27,727 nucleotides of DNA, from positions 1-27,727 of the IMG/VR virus record IMGVR_UViG_3300042914_000971. One strand, given 5' to 3'. Position 1 is the first letter of the stretch. Every line of letters begins with the position of its first letter. The translations under genes and the position numbers were made by a program. The DNA is from a virus. Shown here one piece after another: positions 4,092 through 27,727 of the stretch. The notes below the pieces were generated by a model, which was not told the origin of the DNA, ran no database searches, and saw nothing but the letters and a program-made list of their open reading frames with translations.

Positions 4092-5971
4092 CAGGCTGCA
4101 GCCCCCAAGATGTCCACCTTTTCCTGCTGCAACGCTCGAAGCTCAGCACGGATTTCGTCCAGTTTCTGCGTCTGCTTGCGATACTCGGCAATGGCAGGAT
4201 CTTCTCGCCCCGACGCCAAGGCCAGGAACTGCGCCATGCCCTCGCTTGAGCGAACGTCTCCGGCCTTCAAGGCTTCGTTGGACTTGCCGCCGAGAGCGGA
4301 CTGACGTTCAGCAACTACCTTGTCGATGTCTTCCTGCTTGGCGGCCATCTTCTCGTCAACCTTGGCAGCGTCCTCGGCTCGCTTGCGGTCTGCTTCAATC
4401 AGTTTCTGCTCGTTCTCCCTTCGGGCGGCGAGCATATTCATTTCAAAGTCAAACTTTTCTTTTTCTTCTTTCCTTTGTGCGTCAGCAATTGCTTCTTCGT
4501 TGGCCCGCCGGGCTTCAAAGATTTGCTGCTCTTGATTCGCGCGTTCCTGGGAAGACTTTTTGTCTGCATCGGCAATCGCCTGCTCGTTTGCGAGCCTTGC
4601 CTGATAAATCTGTAGATCTAGATCAAGGGTGTCTTTTGCTTCAGTTGGCCCTTGAGCCGCTGCCGCGTCTGCCGCAGCGCCGGCGGCAGGATTCTGGCCG
4701 CTTGCAAATGCCCGGCCAATGATTGGCACCTTCGACATAAAGGTGTAGAAATCCTTGATCTTCTGGCTGGCCCAATCAATCTGCTCGCCTATGTAGCCAA
4801 AGGCAGCATTCATGCCGCTGCGGATGGCTTCTACGACGTTCGTGAGCCCGACGATAAACGGAGAGAGGAAGGTTTGGACAACAGCCCCAGCGACTTTGAG
4901 CACAATGCCAAGGGTTTCGCCAAGCACGCCAACAAGCTTCAACACGCCTTCCACGACCGTCCCAAGCAGCGTGGCCACTGGTGCAAATGCTTGAGCGATT
5001 GGCGACACAATCGACGTGACGCCTTCAACTACGCCGCTGATGCCGTCCGTAAAGCCAGCAAGTCCAGACTGAACGGCCGCAAAGGCTCCAATGAACGGCG
5101 TCACGAACACGTCGGCCAGCCCAGCAAATGCACTCTCGGAACGCTCGCCGGCAGCAGTCGCCTCTTCCATGGCAAAAGCTAGGTTGTCCACCTGCTGGGC
5201 CTGCACCTGGCCAAGCTCAGCGTTTAGCGATTCCAGCGCGACGGTTCCGGCAGTGATTCCGGCTGCCATCTCAAAGGCTCGGTCCTTTGCGTTCAGAAAC
5301 GCCTTGCCGAGATTGATCGCCAGCAAGGCACCGCCGATGAGCGGATTGCTCAGCCCCAGCACTGCAGCTGCCGTAGTTCCGGCGGCACCGCCACTGATGG
5401 CCAGGCCGATGCCAAGAGCCTTGGCGGCCAGAATCATCGTGCGGGCAGCCATGGCCCCCTTAAGAGCACCAACGGCAAAGTCCTTCAGCCCTGCTGGGTT
5501 GCGAATGGCGCTAAAGAGTTTCCACTGCAAGTACGTGTAGGCAATGTCTTTGCCAAATGCGATGACGCTAATGCCAGCATCGGCCACGCTCTTGGTGGCA
5601 TCGCCAATCCCGCCGATCGCGCCGCTGAGCCCGTTCACGATCCGCTCAGTGACGCTGGCGGCTCTCGCCATATCGTCCACACTCGAGGTGGCCGCCTTCA
5701 GTTCTGCGTCGGCCTTGGCAACGGCCCTGCCGTAGACTTCTTGCGACAGAATGCCCTTCTGCATCATCGCGTCGAGCTTGCCGATAGTGTCGGCGTACTT
5801 CTCAGTCGGCGTCCGCAGTTCCGCCGTAATCTTTGCCGCCTGGCGAAACTCAGCAGCCGTGGCCTTTGCGCTGGCTCCAACCTTGGACAACTCGCGGTCT
5901 GCCTGCGCAACGCCAGCTGCTACGCCATCGGCGTTCGCGCTCAGCTGAAAGGCTAGGTCAAGTTTGGCCAT
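4091..5971 (-). CDS. Tail tape measure protein
   Basis: At 626 residues this is the longest gene in the window and it sits straight after the frameshifted chaperone pair, the usual place of the tape measure gene. The N-terminal half is Ala-rich and helical, with long hydrophobic Gly/Ala stretches around residues 115-225 that suit membrane insertion during DNA ejection. The C-terminal part is a highly charged coiled coil with three 29-residue repeats (residues 454-540). With about 1.5 angstrom of tail per residue, a tail of roughly 90-100 nm is expected. The ATG overlaps the chaperone extension by 14 bases and no good ribosome binding site is seen, suggesting translational coupling. Confidence 0.9.
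   Translation of the reverse strand: MAKLDLAFQLSANADGVAAGVAQADRELSKVGASAKATAAEFRQAAKITAELRTPTEKYADTIGKLDAMMQKGILSQEVYGRAVAKADAELKAATSSVDDMARAASVTERIVNGLSGAIGGIGDATKSVADAGISVIAFGKDIAYTYLQWKLFSAIRNPAGLKDFAVGALKGAMAARTMILAAKALGIGLAISGGAAGTTAAAVLGLSNPLIGGALLAINLGKAFLNAKDRAFEMAAGITAGTVALESLNAELGQVQAQQVDNLAFAMEEATAAGERSESAFAGLADVFVTPFIGAFAAVQSGLAGFTDGISGVVEGVTSIVSPIAQAFAPVATLLGTVVEGVLKLVGVLGETLGIVLKVAGAVVQTFLSPFIVGLTNVVEAIRSGMNAAFGYIGEQIDWASQKIKDFYTFMSKVPIIGRAFASGQNPAAGAAADAAAAQGPTEAKDTLDLDLQIYQARLANEQAIADADKKSSQERANQEQQIFEARRANEEAIADAQRKEEKEKFDFEMNMLAARRENEQKLIEADRKRAEDAAKVDEKMAAKQEDIDKVVAERQSALGGKSNEALKAGDVRSSEGMAQFLALASGREDPAIAEYRKQTQKLDEIRAELRALQQEKVDILGAAA
4352..4612 (-). repeat. Three tandem 29-residue coiled-coil repeats in the tape measure gene
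   Basis: Translated on the minus strand, three consecutive 29-residue units align. They begin QIYQARLANEQAIADADKK, QIFEARRANEEAIADAQRK and NMLAARRENEQKLIEADRK. They cover residues 454-540 of the tape measure protein. Internal duplication of helical units is a known way for tape measure length to change. The units are diverged at DNA level, so the duplication is not recent. Confidence 0.8.
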
Positions 5972-6610
5972 GGGTGGGCGGTTTCAGTTTTGAAAGTTCT
6001 GCGGCTATCTCTTCACCAGACATCGGCGGCCGACGTATCGGCATGAAGTCTTCGGGCTTTGGCGTCCTGCCTTTGACGTGCGGGGCTATCGTGAGCGCCG
6101 CAAGCGTTCCGATCTGCTGCCACTCCCTGCCAAACGGCTCCACGTACCTATCAAACGCCATCCACTCTCTCAGCAACGTCACCGGCATTGCGTTGACGTA
6201 TTCCCAACTCCAGCCAGTCGCTAACGCCAAACGAAACAAGAAGGCCCGGTCTGGCCGGGCTCTCAGTTTTTTGCCAGTTCCTCAATCGACTCATCCGAAA
6301 GGTTGTTGTGTTCCATAGCGGCCTGCCAAACACGGTTAACAACCTTGGCAGACTTTGCCGCCAGCTTTGCAACGTCGCCGTTGTCAAAGAGCCGGTTGCC
6401 CTTCTCGTCCACAAGGCACCGCACCAGAAACTTGGAGCGGAAATCGTCAACGCCTGTGTCTTTCTTTCGCATCCACTCGTTTTCGTAGGCGTCACGCTCT
6501 CCCACGCTCATCACTCGCACATAAACATCACCGCCCCACTCTGGCACGGTGAGCTTGAGCATTCCGAGATCGTCTGCGGCAAGAATCTGATCTTTGGTAA
6601 GGGCCGGCAT
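5958..6610 (-). CDS. Tail assembly chaperone long form (gpGT-like), made by -1 frameshift
   Basis: If ribosomes slip back one base on the AAAAAAC heptamer at 6272-6266, the 115-residue short chaperone continues for 102 more residues to the stop at 5958, giving a 217-residue fusion like lambda gpG-T. The extension begins LRARPDRAFLFRLALATGWSWEYVNAMP and ends in a Pro/Gln-rich tail. The extension has no convincing start of its own: only a TTG at 6239 without a ribosome binding site. In lambda the long form brings the tape measure and tail tube protein together and is absent from the virion. Gene order (tube, chaperone, tape measure) agrees fully. Confidence 0.88.
6244..6272 (-). promoter_or_regulatory. 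Programmed -1 ribosomal frameshift signal (slippery AAAAAAC plus hairpin)
   Basis: In the chaperone reading frame the codons GCA AAA AAC TGA place a perfect X_XXY_YYZ heptamer (A AAA AAC) at 6272-6266, directly before the zero-frame stop. Five bases later a hairpin GCCCGG-CCAGA-CCGGGC spans 6260-6244. Heptamer, spacing and hairpin are all as expected for -1 frameshifting in long-tailed phages. Confidence 0.9.
6263..6610 (-). CDS. Tail assembly chaperone short form (gpG-like)
   Basis: A 115-residue acidic protein (MPALTKDQILAADDLGMLKL at the start, EELAKN at the end) whose stop lies right after the slippery heptamer. The start shares one base with the stop of the tail-tube-like gene before it (TAATG). 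Proteins of this place and size bind the tape measure during tail assembly. The N-terminal pattern, an ILAADD segment followed by an EWGG-type loop and a VGERDAYE helix, is typical of small phage chaperones of the gp13/gpG class. The function rests on synteny plus the frameshift signal. Confidence 0.85.
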   Translation of the reverse strand: MPALTKDQILAADDLGMLKLTVPEWGGDVYVRVMSVGERDAYENEWMRKKDTGVDDFRSKFLVRCLVDEKGNRLFDNGDVAKLAAKSAKVVNRVWQAAMEHNNLSDESIEELAKN

Positions 6611-23962: not shown

Positions 23963-24627
23963 AGTTTGGCCCCAGTGCAGATGGCTAGCCGGTAGTGACA
24001 CATCGGGCCAAAGCCGGTGTGCAACGTCTCGTCGTTCATCCCGAACACAAACACGTTTCGCCAGTAGCGTTTTAGCGTGGCCCTAAACTCGCCTTCGGTC
24101 TTGCAGTTCACATGCCCAGCCTTGCTGAGATCTGACGCATGCGGCTGAGACTCAAGCGACGGCATGCCGCAGATAAACGTGCCGTGTTGCCCGATGCTCA
24201 GGGCCACGTTGCCGAGAAATGAGCCCTCGTGCTCCTGGCGTATGTGCTCAAGCACGTCGAGAGCGTAGGCGGCATCAAACACGACTGGCAGGCGATCAGG
24301 CACGTAGCGTGGTGCAGCTACCATGTCGTGCTGCATTAGCATCACGTTGTCGGGCTGCTGCCGGGATCGGGCCTCTTCAATGAACGCGGCATCGAAGTCC
24401 GTTGCGATTACGCGGCCAACGGACTGAGCCACGATCCGTGTGGCAAACGCATCGCCGCAGCCCGCCTCAAGCACCCAATCGCAGCCAGCGAGAACACGGG
24501 CAACAAACTTGTACCGGGCAAGCGTGAACCCCAGCCGCTTCGAGTCCACCTCGTAGGTGTGCGAACTCATCAGCCCAAGCGAATGCCTCTGGTATTCAGC
24601 AAGAACGTCGTATTGCTGTTCGTTCAC
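23959..24627 (-). CDS. Class I SAM-dependent methyltransferase
   Basis: The 222-residue protein has the Rossmann-type motifs: VLEAGCGDAFATRIVA (motif I, residues 52-67), an acidic residue at the end of strand 2 (VIATDFDA), then LMQHDMVAA and AYALDVLEHI (motif IV-like, with the EHI seen in small-molecule or sugar methyltransferases). The lack of a DNA-methyltransferase DPPY motif argues against base methylation. With glycosyltransferases on its 3-prime side it more likely acts on a sugar or glycan. ATG at 24627 overlaps the RusA stop by four bases. Confidence 0.88.
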   Translation of the reverse strand: MNEQQYDVLAEYQRHSLGLMSSHTYEVDSKRLGFTLARYKFVARVLAGCDWVLEAGCGDAFATRIVAQSVGRVIATDFDAAFIEEARSRQQPDNVMLMQHDMVAAPRYVPDRLPVVFDAAYALDVLEHIRQEHEGSFLGNVALSIGQHGTFICGMPSLESQPHASDLSKAGHVNCKTEGEFRATLKRYWRNVFVFGMNDETLHTGFGPMCHYRLAICTGAKL

Positions 24628-25022
24628 GACACACGCACGGTAGTCCGTGCCTCCTGGCCGTATGACTTTTCCACCACCAATCGCCCCACCAGCGAGTCAT
24701 CGCCCATCACGTCCTGCAGTGCGTCAAGCACCGCCTTGGCGATGTTGTCCACGTCGGGCCTGGGCAGCTTCGGTGCATCGGGTTTCACGCCGGCCTTTCG
24801 TAGGTGGGACTTGGGACGCTCAAACACTGCATCAATCACCACGTTGAGCGGCTCGCCGGTTGTCGTAAGCCCGGCACCTCGAGCAGCTGCTGCGATGGCC
24901 GAGCGGTACGCATGCACTGGGTGCTTCCCTGGCACGTACGCACGGGCGAACCCGCCCGCAGTCGAGACTCGCGGCCTCGGCTGTGGGACGGGCTGCCCTG
25001 CGACTGAGAACGTGACGGCCAA
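24624..25022 (-). CDS. rusA: Holliday junction resolvase RusA
   Basis: The 132-residue protein has the RusA signatures: GQPVPQPRPRV near the start, ERPKSH in the middle, and PRPDVDNIAKAVLDALQDVMGDD with Asp90, Asp92, Lys96 and Asp108/109 standing for the known catalytic Asp70, Asp72, Lys76 and Asp91 of the E. coli enzyme. RusA cuts four-way DNA junctions formed in recombination or replication. The start is TTG at 25022, four bases after the stop of the preceding gene. A phage needs it to resolve branched DNA before packaging. Confidence 0.92.
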   Translation of the reverse strand: MAVTFSVAGQPVPQPRPRVSTAGGFARAYVPGKHPVHAYRSAIAAAARGAGLTTTGEPLNVVIDAVFERPKSHLRKAGVKPDAPKLPRPDVDNIAKAVLDALQDVMGDDSLVGRLVVEKSYGQEARTTVRVS

Positions 25023-25337: not shown

Positions 25338-25619
25338 AGCAGTCCTCCTGTGACTGGGAACAAATCCACAGCCAGGAGGATGGCAAACGTGTCAAGGAAT
25401 CAGGGCCGCCCCACTTGTATGCAAAAGTGTTCGCTTTTCGTTGCTTTTGACATACGTCAAGTTTTCTTGTCGCGGAACGTGACACGACTGCGAGATATGC
25501 GGCAGATAATCCGCGTTAGCGCGGCAAGCCTGCGGCTAGCGGCTGCACGGCGCTGACGGCTTGGGGATATACGGCCAGAAAAGTGAATACACGGGTCCGC
25601 ATACTCACTGGTTCGCCGA
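25338..25619. other. Gene-free stretch with small palindromes
   Basis: No frame here has coding features on either strand. The stretch is AT-richer than its surroundings in its middle part. It holds the inverted repeat at 25447-25460, a small hairpin CCGCG-CTAA-CGCGG read on the minus strand (near 25511-25525, poor T tract after it) and a TTGACA-like hexamer on the minus strand without a convincing -10 box. It likely carries the control region for the secreted protein and RusA operon. Confidence 0.5.
25447..25460. promoter_or_regulatory. Inverted repeat TTGAC-ATAC-GTCAA (operator candidate)
   Basis: TTGACATACGTCAA is an exact 5+5 inverted repeat with a 4-base centre, in the gene-free stretch between the ribbon-helix-helix gene and the secreted protein gene. 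Ribbon-helix-helix dimers bind short inverted repeats, and one is coded just upstream, so it may be an operator. No direct proof. Confidence 0.4.
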
Positions 25620-25838
25620 CTACTTGCGGCCCCTTCGTTTCTTCCACCGCGCAGCCGCCCCCGCCTCTGCCTGCTCGCCGATGTCCGGGTTGCCGGGCGT
25701 CATCTCCGGTGCGTCCACCCGCAGTAGACGCGACACGGCCAGGCGGATTGCGTCGCTGGGCGTGGTGCCGTGCTTCTCGCAGTAAGCCGCCAACGGCCCC
25801 GCGAGCGGGCCGAGGCGGAAGGTGATGCGGTCGCTCAC
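25620..25838 (-). CDS. Ribbon-helix-helix (CopG/Arc-like) DNA-binding protein
   Basis: The 72-residue protein starts with GTG at 25838, overlapping the preceding stop (GTGA). A short strand (DRITFRL), helix (GPLAGPLAAYCEKHG) and second helix (TTPSDAIRLAVSRLL) give the ribbon-helix-helix fold, followed by a tail ending in KKRRGRK. Such proteins repress nearby promoters as dimers. A longer frame up to 25976 exists but would overlap the preceding gene wholly and adds non-homologous sequence. The operator candidate lies 160 bases downstream. Confidence 0.8.
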   Translation of the reverse strand: MSDRITFRLGPLAGPLAAYCEKHGTTPSDAIRLAVSRLLRVDAPEMTPGNPDIGEQAEAGAAARWKKRRGRK

Positions 25839-26020
25839 TGGCCCTGCCTCCAAGCGTTTTCGCAGCGGAGGCTGGCAGCCTCCGCTGCCTTCTTCGACTT
25901 CCAGCCAAGCTTGTTGTTTGCCGGCAGATTGCACCCAGGGTGACCATTCGCGATGTAGTACCGGACGATATCGCACACCTTGATTTCCACCACGCGGTCG
26001 TTGTTGAGCAGAGCGTTCAT
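25835..26020 (-). CDS. Small hypothetical protein, first gene behind a promoter
   Basis: A 61-residue protein with ATG at 26020 and GGAGA about 8 bases upstream. It begins MNALLNNDRVVEIKVCDIVR and includes NGHPGCNLPANNKLGWKSKKA; two further Cys lie at 30 and 53. It is the first gene behind the promoter at 26071-26098 and overlaps the ribbon-helix-helix gene by four bases. A partner or antitoxin-like role of the pair is possible; no family is recognised. Confidence 0.65.
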   Translation of the reverse strand: MNALLNNDRVVEIKVCDIVRYYIANGHPGCNLPANNKLGWKSKKAAEAASLRCENAWRQGQ

Positions 26021-26070
26021 TTCTTTGTCTCCCGTTTGAGGCTTGCGGCTCGTTGCCGCGTCATGCCCTA

Positions 26071-26098
26071 AGTATACCTAGTGTCGGACGGAAGGCAA
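26071..26098 (-). promoter_or_regulatory. Sigma70-type promoter
   Basis: On the minus strand TTGCCT (26098-26093) and TATACT (26076-26071) are 16 bases apart, with five of six -10 matches. A start near 26064 would leave about 44 bases of leader before the ATG at 26020. It is the best promoter by eye in the window and follows the end of the repeat-flanked island, so it restarts transcription there. Confidence 0.6.
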
Positions 26099-26174
26099 GC
26101 CCCGCTCCAAGATTTTTTTGACCCCCCGTATTTCCCGGGGAAAAGCAGGGTTCCGGCCCCGGCTGGGCGTCGGC

Positions 26175-26227
26175 GAACCAGGCGCTGGAGCGGACGGCCA
26201 GGGGCCGCCGCTCAGCTTCCGTGTTCT
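26175..26227 (-). repeat. 53-bp repeat, copy 1, attC-like imperfect palindrome
   Basis: It is identical over 53 bases to the copy at 26900-26952. The plus strand folds as GAAC/GTTC at the ends, an unpaired internal loop, then a stem with one extra G and one extra A six paired bases apart, and a 3-base loop. That is the plan of integron attC sites (R box pairing, unpaired central spacer, L box with extrahelical bases). The R box sequence departs from the consensus. The stop codon of the small membrane protein shares its last base with the repeat. Confidence 0.8.
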
Positions 26228-26427
26228 CACTGCCTGCGAATCACCAAAATAGCCACCGCCAGAGCGAGAGCCGAAGCAGCCGCCCCTGTTCTTGAGCCGT
26301 TGGCCCATGCTGCGGCTGGGATGATCCATCCAGCAAAGCACCAGCATCGCCAAAGCGTGTTCCAGAATGCCGTCCAGAATGGCCCCCAGCCGAAATCGTT
26401 GAATGGCGATGTGTCGATCAGTCGCAT
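26227..26427 (-). CDS. Small membrane protein in the repeat-flanked island
   Basis: A 66-residue protein from ATG 26427, with AGGAG about 8 bases upstream. It is rich in Trp, Phe and Ala (FNDFGWGPFWTAFWNTLWRC, then CFAGWIIPAAA and ASALALAVAILVIRR), giving two likely membrane helices. Its stop touches the 53-bp repeat. A longer frame to 26631 overlaps the next gene and lacks a signal. Small hydrophobic proteins are common in integron cassettes. Function unknown. Confidence 0.6.
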   Translation of the reverse strand: MRLIDTSPFNDFGWGPFWTAFWNTLWRCWCFAGWIIPAAAWANGSRTGAAASALALAVAILVIRRQ

Positions 26428-26491
26428 GTTCAGACTCCTGTTCCGTGAGAACCAAGCGATGCAGCGGACGAGCCGCTGATCGCAGCCGTTC

Positions 26492-26863
26492 TCAGGCAAA
26501 CCGCTCCCGCCCCTTGGCGATCCCACGTTCGACTGCCGCTCGGATTGCGGCCTCGGCTTCGTCGCCGTCCTTGAGTTCAAAGTAGGACGCAATGACGTTC
26601 TCCAGCGATCCCCGTGGAGTGACGCTGCCACCGCCGCCCAACTCGCAGTTCACCATCTCGTCATGGGTTGCGTACACGCATGGGGCTTCGTCTTCGTTGT
26701 CTCCAAATCCGCCATCGATCTCGACCTGCTTACGGAGTTCCGAAAACCTGCAAATGAACCACTTGTCCCAAAGTTCGGTCCACCGCTCGACGGTGTTCAC
26801 CTGCGAGGCATCATTCCAATCAGCAAGAAACAAATCGCCCTCATCCTTCGCTTTGGTCGTCAT
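26492..26863 (-). CDS. Acidic hypothetical protein in the repeat-flanked island
   Basis: A 123-residue acidic protein from ATG 26863 with a perfect AAGGAGG ribosome binding site six bases upstream, only 37 bases after the end of repeat copy 2. It holds ADWNDASQVNTVERWTELWD, a Trp/Phe core (KWFICRFSELRKQV), an acidic loop and a C-terminal helix (EAEAAIRAAVERGIAKGRER). No family recognised. Having its own strong ribosome binding site between two repeats fits a self-contained mobile cassette. Confidence 0.68.
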   Translation of the reverse strand: MTTKAKDEGDLFLADWNDASQVNTVERWTELWDKWFICRFSELRKQVEIDGGFGDNEDEAPCVYATHDEMVNCELGGGGSVTPRGSLENVIASYFELKDGDEAEAAIRAAVERGIAKGRERFA

Positions 26864-26899
26864 AAATCCCTCCTTTTCGGTTTGAAGAATCATACCTGA

Positions 26900-26952
26900 G
26901 AACCAGGCGCTGGAGCGGACGGCCAGGGGCCGCCGCTCAGCTTCCGTGTTCT
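26900..26952 (-). repeat. 53-bp repeat, copy 2, attC-like imperfect palindrome
   Basis: A perfect second copy of the repeat at 26175-26227, 725 bases away. Read on the minus strand it begins one base after the stop codon of the helix-turn-helix gene, so both copies follow a gene end at once, as attC sites follow cassette genes. Bases outside the 53 are unrelated. No T run follows the stem on the coding strand, so a plain terminator is less likely. Confidence 0.8.
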
Positions 26953-26953
26953 G

Positions 26954-27328
26954 TCACGCCACACCTCTCGGCTGGCAGATCCCGTGACGCCACTTGCTGA
27001 CTTTGCTTTGCGTGTTGCAAGGCTCCTCTCGCCGTCTGCTGTCGTAGTGCTTTTCCCTCACCACCTTTGCCCGCTCCTCAACCCACGGCGACAACGCCAG
27101 TCCGTCTAGCGATGCGGCATCGTCCTCAGGTGTCGGTGCCTCAGGTTCGTCAGCTGGGTGCAGCGTCCTGCGTGGCAACTTGTACCGCTGTGCCCACTTT
27201 GTGACTGTGGAATAGGCCACGCCAAACCGCTTGGCAATCTCTGACGAGGTAACGCCTTCCGCCCACAGTTGGTGGAGCAGCACGAGATCAGCCCGAGAGT
27301 GGTTGCGTGATGCTTCGCTGGCTTTCAT
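26954..27328 (-). CDS. Helix-turn-helix protein (GcrA-like DNA-binding type)
   Basis: The 124-residue protein starts at ATG 27328, overlapping the clamp stop by four bases. It begins MKASEASRNHSRADLVLLHQ and holds a helix-turn-helix (LWAEGVTSSEIAKRFGVAYS, TVTKWAQRYKLPRR) of the GcrA/Hin style, an acidic Pro-rich linker, and RAKVVREKHYDSRR near the end, parallel to RAKHLADRL of the protein at 21954-22343. A regulator or small-terminase-like DNA-binder is likely. The C-terminal end carries Cys and His (EPCNTQ, HGICQ). Confidence 0.7.
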   Translation of the reverse strand: MKASEASRNHSRADLVLLHQLWAEGVTSSEIAKRFGVAYSTVTKWAQRYKLPRRTLHPADEPEAPTPEDDAASLDGLALSPWVEERAKVVREKHYDSRRREEPCNTQSKVSKWRHGICQPRGVA

Positions 27329-27727
27329 GCGTCCTCCGCCAGAGGCATGATGACGCCCGTGTACGAATCTCCAACCTTCATCACCGTCTTGCCATCTGGC
27401 TTGCAGATATGAATGGCAACGCACGGTTCGTCGTCCTGGCCAAAAGGCTTGAGAAAATGATGCACGTACTTCGGATCAAGCTTGACGGTGGCGGGATCCG
27501 CAGGCGATTCAACGTGGCACTCAACCTCTGACTGCCCAGCCTCTGAGCTCTTTGCAGTAAGAGTCAACGTGTCGCCTGAGAAAGCGAACCGCACGCCCTT
27601 TGATGACTCTGTGGCCACAACCGCTGCACAACTCACGGCGTGAGCTAGGTCGCTCCGAGACACTGAATGAGCCTGTGGCAGCTCTTGCCCAAGCACGTCG
27701 CGCCACCTTGGAAATCGCCCTTCAATC
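27325..27727 (-). CDS. dnaN: DNA polymerase III sliding clamp (beta subunit), partial
   Basis: The frame is open to the right edge and ends with TGA at 27325, giving 133 visible residues. It starts IEGRFPRWRDVL, the hallmark EGRFPDYRRVLP-type segment at about residue 240 of bacterial clamps, and ends VGDSYTGVIMPLAEDA, the clamp end (YVVMPM). KYVHHFLKPFG matches the clamp segment where YL.D.L is usual. The clamp tethers polymerase to DNA; a phage copy points to its own replication set beyond the edge. Only the C-terminal third is here. A GTG at 27696 is inside the domain and not a true start. Confidence 0.85.
   Translation of the reverse strand, partial: IEGRFPRWRDVLGQELPQAHSVSRSDLAHAVSCAAVVATESSKGVRFAFSGDTLTLTAKSSEAGQSEVECHVESPADPATVKLDPKYVHHFLKPFGQDDEPCVAIHICKPDGKTVMKVGDSYTGVIMPLAEDA

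Follow-up and report, generated by a model that had tools for sequence, protein, structure and literature searches.

A probable integrase-less integron with reversed gene cassettes in an HK97-type phage related to planctomycete prophages

The phage and the question raised by its repeats

What kind of element places identical hairpin-forming repeats around small genes of a phage? The window analyzed here is the whole of IMG/VR record IMGVR_UViG_3300042914_000971 (27,727 bp), a contig that is a linear fragment and that carries HK97-type capsid, portal and terminase genes. A first-pass annotation had proposed that two 53-bp repeats bounded an integron-type gene cassette inside this phage. Our analyses upheld the class of element, and based on the sequence comparisons below we consider it highly probable that the window holds an integrase-less integron in an HK97-type relative of planctomycete prophages, whose cassettes are mobilized in trans by the integron integrase (IntI) of the host.

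Relatives of the window terminase occurred in planctomycete genomes (62 of 398 genomes at E<=1e-20), the best at 50-60% identity, and for this reason the hosts of these phages are probably Planctomycetota. No similar sequence was found among 50,697 deposited phage records, in which the relatives of the terminase were all below 60% identity. The prophage regions around the terminase relatives were mostly without arrays. In one complete planctomycete chromosome (G318, locus L277), positions 5185-6400 contain an attC (E=2.4e-5) and, about 1.1 kb from it on that strand, a weak attI-like match (E=0.065); a terminase relative is approximately 13 kb away.

The features of the array region are given below; all window genes around the array are on the minus strand. 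R2 is a covariance model built from planctomycete chromosomal attC alone, whose E-values are rough as its calibration was shortened.

24624-25022: RusA-like resolvase gene, flanking the array region
25545-25614, plus strand: attI-like leader (70 bp), with its G^TT crossover falling between 25611 and 25612
25612-26223, minus strand: cassette 0 (612 bp; own attC is site A), with genes for an RHH-like protein (25620-25838) and a small ORF (25835-26020), both minus; BLAST matches in many other phages
26172-26229, plus strand: attC site A (short type), R2 41.0 bits, E=1.3e-9
26224-26488, minus strand: cassette 1 (265 bp; attC B), with a 66-aa membrane-like protein gene (26227-26427)
26446-26494, plus strand: attC site B, R2 54.7 bits, E=2.1e-13
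26489-26948, minus strand: cassette 2 (460 bp; attC C), with a 123-aa protein gene (26492-26863) that has its own SD
26897-26954, plus strand: attC site C, R2 43.6 bits, E=2.6e-10, identical to A over 53 bp
26949-27365, minus strand: phage HTH gene and part of a clamp-like gene, the right flank of the array, matched at 92.3% in sister phage L027
27325-27696: gene whose product has a DNA polymerase clamp C-terminal domain, flanking the array region

Three attC sites in the window

The two 53-nt copies (26175-26227 and 26900-26952) were 100% identical, as the first-pass annotation had reported, and both genes that it had placed between them were present, one coding for 123 aa behind a strong ribosome-binding site and the other for a 66-aa membrane-like protein. 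The motif GAACCARGCGNTG occurred three times in the window, on the plus strand only, versus 0.02 occurrences expected by chance. The third match, at 26449, is part of site B, which differs from A and C. As this third attC sits between the two copies, the supposed single cassette is in fact two. In addition, the array is wider than the island between the copies, extending through 25612-26223 to the attI-like leader at 25545-25611.

Refolding of copy A reproduced the attC plan that had been described for it: its GAAC and GTTC ends pair, and the fold has a spacer, a 3-nt AGG loop and two extrahelical bases, G and A, six base pairs apart. The stem was confirmed on both strands of sites A, B and C; copy A had fold z-scores of -2.6 (plus) and -3.7 (minus), and site B scored about -5 on either strand. 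A search of the window with R2 up to E = 10 returned three matches, which were sites A, B and C, all on the plus strand. The sites therefore have the features by which attC are recognized: extrahelical bases, a spacer that is unpaired, and an imperfect inverted repeat with R and L boxes. The textbook R box consensus is GTTR and that of the window is GTTC; relative to the R' core G^TTRRRY, the GTT is kept and is followed by CTC or CTG in the window, while chromosomal planctomycete sites have GTTCGGC. This departure, which had been counted against an integron origin, stays on the contrary side, although planctomycete arrays use the GTTC form. The stop codons observed to abut the copies are explained by the TGA being part of the TGAGAAC box. 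With three attC and no intI, the window fits the definition of a CALIN (at least two attC, no intI), from the plain form of which it is set apart by its attI-like leader; intI, which a complete integron has on the same element, is absent from this record, and as the record is a linear fragment an integrase may lie elsewhere on the genome.

Cassettes appear to move as units between phages

The crossovers in the window (G25611^, G26223^, G26488^ and G26948^) delimit cassettes of 612, 265 and 460 bp, and units with such G^TT junctions were found to be mobile. Cassette 1 recurs in phage contig L043 (98.5% over 261 bp), where homology stops at the crossovers and the only further similarity to the window consists of attC copies. 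Cassette 2 recurs in L029 at 96.7% over 458 bp, the phage genes shared with L029 being about 66-77% identical in the longer matches. In both L043 and L029 the sequence switches exactly at G^TT, with no common left flank. Matches to cassette 0 in many other phages start at 25611 or stop at 26225-26231, and in those phages the cassette is preceded by unrelated attC sites. For the 123-aa and 66-aa proteins, neither Pfam nor PHROG gave a match at E<=0.01.

A relative without 26175-26899, of the kind whose discovery would bear on the proposed gain of this segment, was found in sister phage L027. Its left match to the window ends at 25614, with 91-95% identity near the junction, and its right match covers 26948-27365. 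As judged from these alignments, L027 is an allelic array swap, with other cassettes between the same two G^TT crossover points. Neighboring phages likewise had differing cassette sets between identical G^TT points, and single cassettes in unrelated contexts. The earlier suggestion that the perfect identity of the repeats implied a recent gain was not retained, as many phages conserve this attC type.

The ends of the cassettes were also informative. In 146 phage cassettes, the bases past the crossover paired with R'' of the cassette's own attC over a mean of 3.95 bp beyond GAAC/GTTC, as an excised circle needs, versus 1.89 bp with the preceding attC (shuffled mean 1.58, maximum 1.91).

An attI-like leader shared with planctomycete integrons

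The leader is kept in 16 aligned phages, while the cassettes behind it vary. R1, a sequence profile of the leader built from phages alone, matched 25 phage contigs, and in 25 of 25 the match lay upstream of the array and shared the strand of the first attC (the pairing of R1 and attC hits was read by eye, and three further weak partial hits are excluded from the 25). In planctomycete genomes, R1 matched G050:C166, G052:C1084, G053:C75 and G388:C1, at 188, 126, 248 and 220 bp, respectively, 3' of an intI on the same strand, which was intact in G053 and G388. In G050 and G052, where intI was broken or partial, an attC followed about 1 kb further on. R1 matches in G057, G071, G078, G080, G283 and G446 had no listed intI adjoining. 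Because a profile made only from phages finds its match 3' of planctomycete intI, the phage leader is, by sequence homology, an attI homologue. The leader motif is repeated in part (GAGATATGCGGCAG; E=0.13) at 25480-25505, upstream of the attI-like site, in a direct-repeat-like arrangement.

Chromosomal arrays and the phage sample

A scan of 84,980 species genomes with a 20-base motif showed that Planctomycetota, mostly Gemmataceae and Pirellula-like MAGs, carry the same element in long arrays. TIGR02249, the integron integrase model, was above cut-off in 16 of 33 planctomycete-type genomes, and the window repeat matched chromosomal arrays in genomes that carry IntI. When 25 chromosomal sites were aligned, 91.8% of positions in 19 base pairs were paired and 11 of the 19 pairs had compensatory changes, with none of 500 shuffles as high. 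Integron integrase genes that are split or contain stops were seen in several genomes with attC arrays (G050:C166, G055:C168 and G075:C623).

R2 identified about 200 sites in 55 contigs and never both strands within one contig. The phage site statistics are based on this covariance model, which replaced regex-based detection. Compensatory changes were present in 14 of 19 pairs of the phage sites, in an alignment that was fitted to R2 and is thus biased towards structure. The median cassette length over all contigs was approximately 360 bp; some contigs are duplicates (e.g., L012/L035/L049 and L052/L055). The array was long in L008 (247-5056), L028 (6019-10449) and L038 (2330-5502), with attC numbering from 8 to 15 or more.

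Reversed genes and their cargo

The first-pass annotation had considered that the extrahelical bases lay on the wrong strand for the genes of an integron cassette. Their strand is canonical relative to attC; what is reversed, systematically and throughout the phage pool, is the orientation of the cassette genes. Among 115 non-redundant phage cassettes, the bottom strand of attC held the longer ORF in 70 of 72 clear cases, whereas in chromosomal arrays, whose cassettes were delimited with a different site finder, the clearly longer ORF was on the top strand in 40 of 42. The phage sample was picked by attC motif, which biases site type and leaves gene strand unbiased. In 91 of 96 short phage cassettes with a bottom-strand ORF, the stop codon was located no more than 12 nt from the crossover. 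This reversed orientation looks to be a new feature. Since the array and surrounding genes are all on the minus strand, read-through from the right flank would express the cassette genes. We propose that transcription of the phage operon starts at the right end and crosses the array in the direction of attI, such that only reversed genes would be co-transcribed, and this would be why the cassette genes oppose attC.

The cargo would consist mostly of small phage accessory genes. Of 95 cassette proteins, 15 matched DUF551, and there were single matches to the Mom, HNH endonuclease and phosphoesterase families. The Mom cargo suggests a role in counter-defense. DUF551-type proteins (WIPVTERLP..., e.g., L008:1151-1477) were the commonest cargo, and the products of L047:929-1426 and L052:4072-4659 are, from their sequences, probably Mom-like DNA-modification and phosphoesterase proteins. 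Many cassettes have their first ~50 bp in common, which probably code for a conserved C-terminus.

Probable translation starts inside attC

In 57 non-redundant phage cassettes the ORF started within the attC, comprising 49 of 59 with long sites and 8 of 37 with short sites. R'' was crossed in the same frame (GGT TCx) by 46 of these 57 ORFs, and an SD-like 4-mer was upstream in 43 of the 47 that had an in-frame ATG inside the site. N-termini such as MSDETTPQDSAAMSPASAGS or MTKEVDEMSAASRGS were found on differing gene bodies. Conversely, near-identical gene bodies had different attC types, with the break at or near GAACCA in L028/L021, L033/L039 and L028/L018, and further in than GAACCA in L028/L017. 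Both cassettes 1 and 2 of the window have the short attC type, and their genes start downstream of the site. From these sequences, long attC would usually carry the ribosome-binding site, start codon and N-terminus of the gene, which also looks to be new. We lean, with less assurance than for the integron itself, towards a fuller model, namely a phage-dedicated integron that borrows host IntI and draws on a reversed pool, with attC serving as a start module and a Gly-Ser frame (GGT TCx) at R'' permitting in-frame swaps of modules and bodies.

How are the cassettes moved?

Integron integrase (TIGR02249) was above cut-off in none of 50 phage records, the sole weak match being an ordinary phage integrase locus, and from this we infer that IntI of the host acts in trans. 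It would fold the attC strand, cut at G^TT to release cassettes as circles, and insert these at the attI of the phage or at attC sites. Could the phages instead move the arrays with a tyrosine recombinase of their own? A phrog_1 or XerC/XerD-like integrase was above cut-off in 19 of 42 larger phage records, but in its scores this protein is like any ordinary phage integrase and falls below the integron-integrase model, and where located it was several to tens of kb from the array. As the attC and attI sites of the phages also look like those beside chromosomal intI, we regard a phage-encoded recombinase as unlikely.

We give slightly less credence still to the sites being inert relics, with cassettes that came from a chromosomal integron in a single acquisition and that homologous recombination between repeats now shuffles. 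Phages are mosaic, repeats of 40-50 bp are able to recombine by homology, and certain breaks do fall inside conserved attC segments. Against this, the G^TT breaks join attC of different type without left homology, cassettes have kept the complementarity of their ends with their own attC, compensatory changes maintain pairing, and gene orientation is opposite to that of the chromosomal pool. That the repeats are simply terminators or REP-like hairpins between phage genes, as stable intergenic hairpins adjoining stop codons might be, has a negligible probability in our estimation: the window repeats had no Rfam match at E<=1, and against it stand the unpaired spacer, the two fixed bulges with six base pairs between them, the covariation, the mobility of the cassettes and the precise homology of the sites to chromosomal attC arrays. 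On the grounds given for each, terminators or REP elements and pure homologous recombination were rejected as explanations. With host IntI as the favored agent, these phages appear to trade small genes via the integron machinery of their hosts.

Relationship to known integrons

The phage arrays resemble the chromosomal integrons of Planctomycetota in their attC family (GAACCARGCG...GTTC, with G and A bulges six pairs apart), the attI motif that in the chromosomes is 3' of intI, and the attI-to-attC polarity. They differ in being without intI, in having genes on the opposite attC strand and in the 57 starts inside attC. With class 1 integron cassettes (aadA7-type attC; PMC9892861) they share single-gene cassettes, the G^TT crossover and a folded attC with extrahelical bases, but the phage R box is GTTCNNN, not GTTRRRY, the gene is reversed and the sites are very short. 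Integrons and CALINs were described by Qi et al. 2023 (PMC9892861) from 21 phages, temperate as well as virulent, whose hosts are diverse; the arrays there are mostly canonical in orientation, and IntI1 was shown to be active on phage attC sites. The conserved attI-like site, the allelic array swaps among related phages and the reversed pool go beyond that report. A search of the full text of open-access papers, with matches judged by title and abstract, gave no report of reversed phage cassettes, of a phage attI common with planctomycetes, or of translation starts in attC.

Together, these data suggest that a group of phages parasitizes the integron system of its hosts as a standing gene-exchange platform, the parts of which are a landing site, a common cassette pool and reversed cassettes suited to phage transcription. 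If the starts inside attC are true translation starts, a recombination site would have gained a new role as a translation-initiation and N-terminal module.
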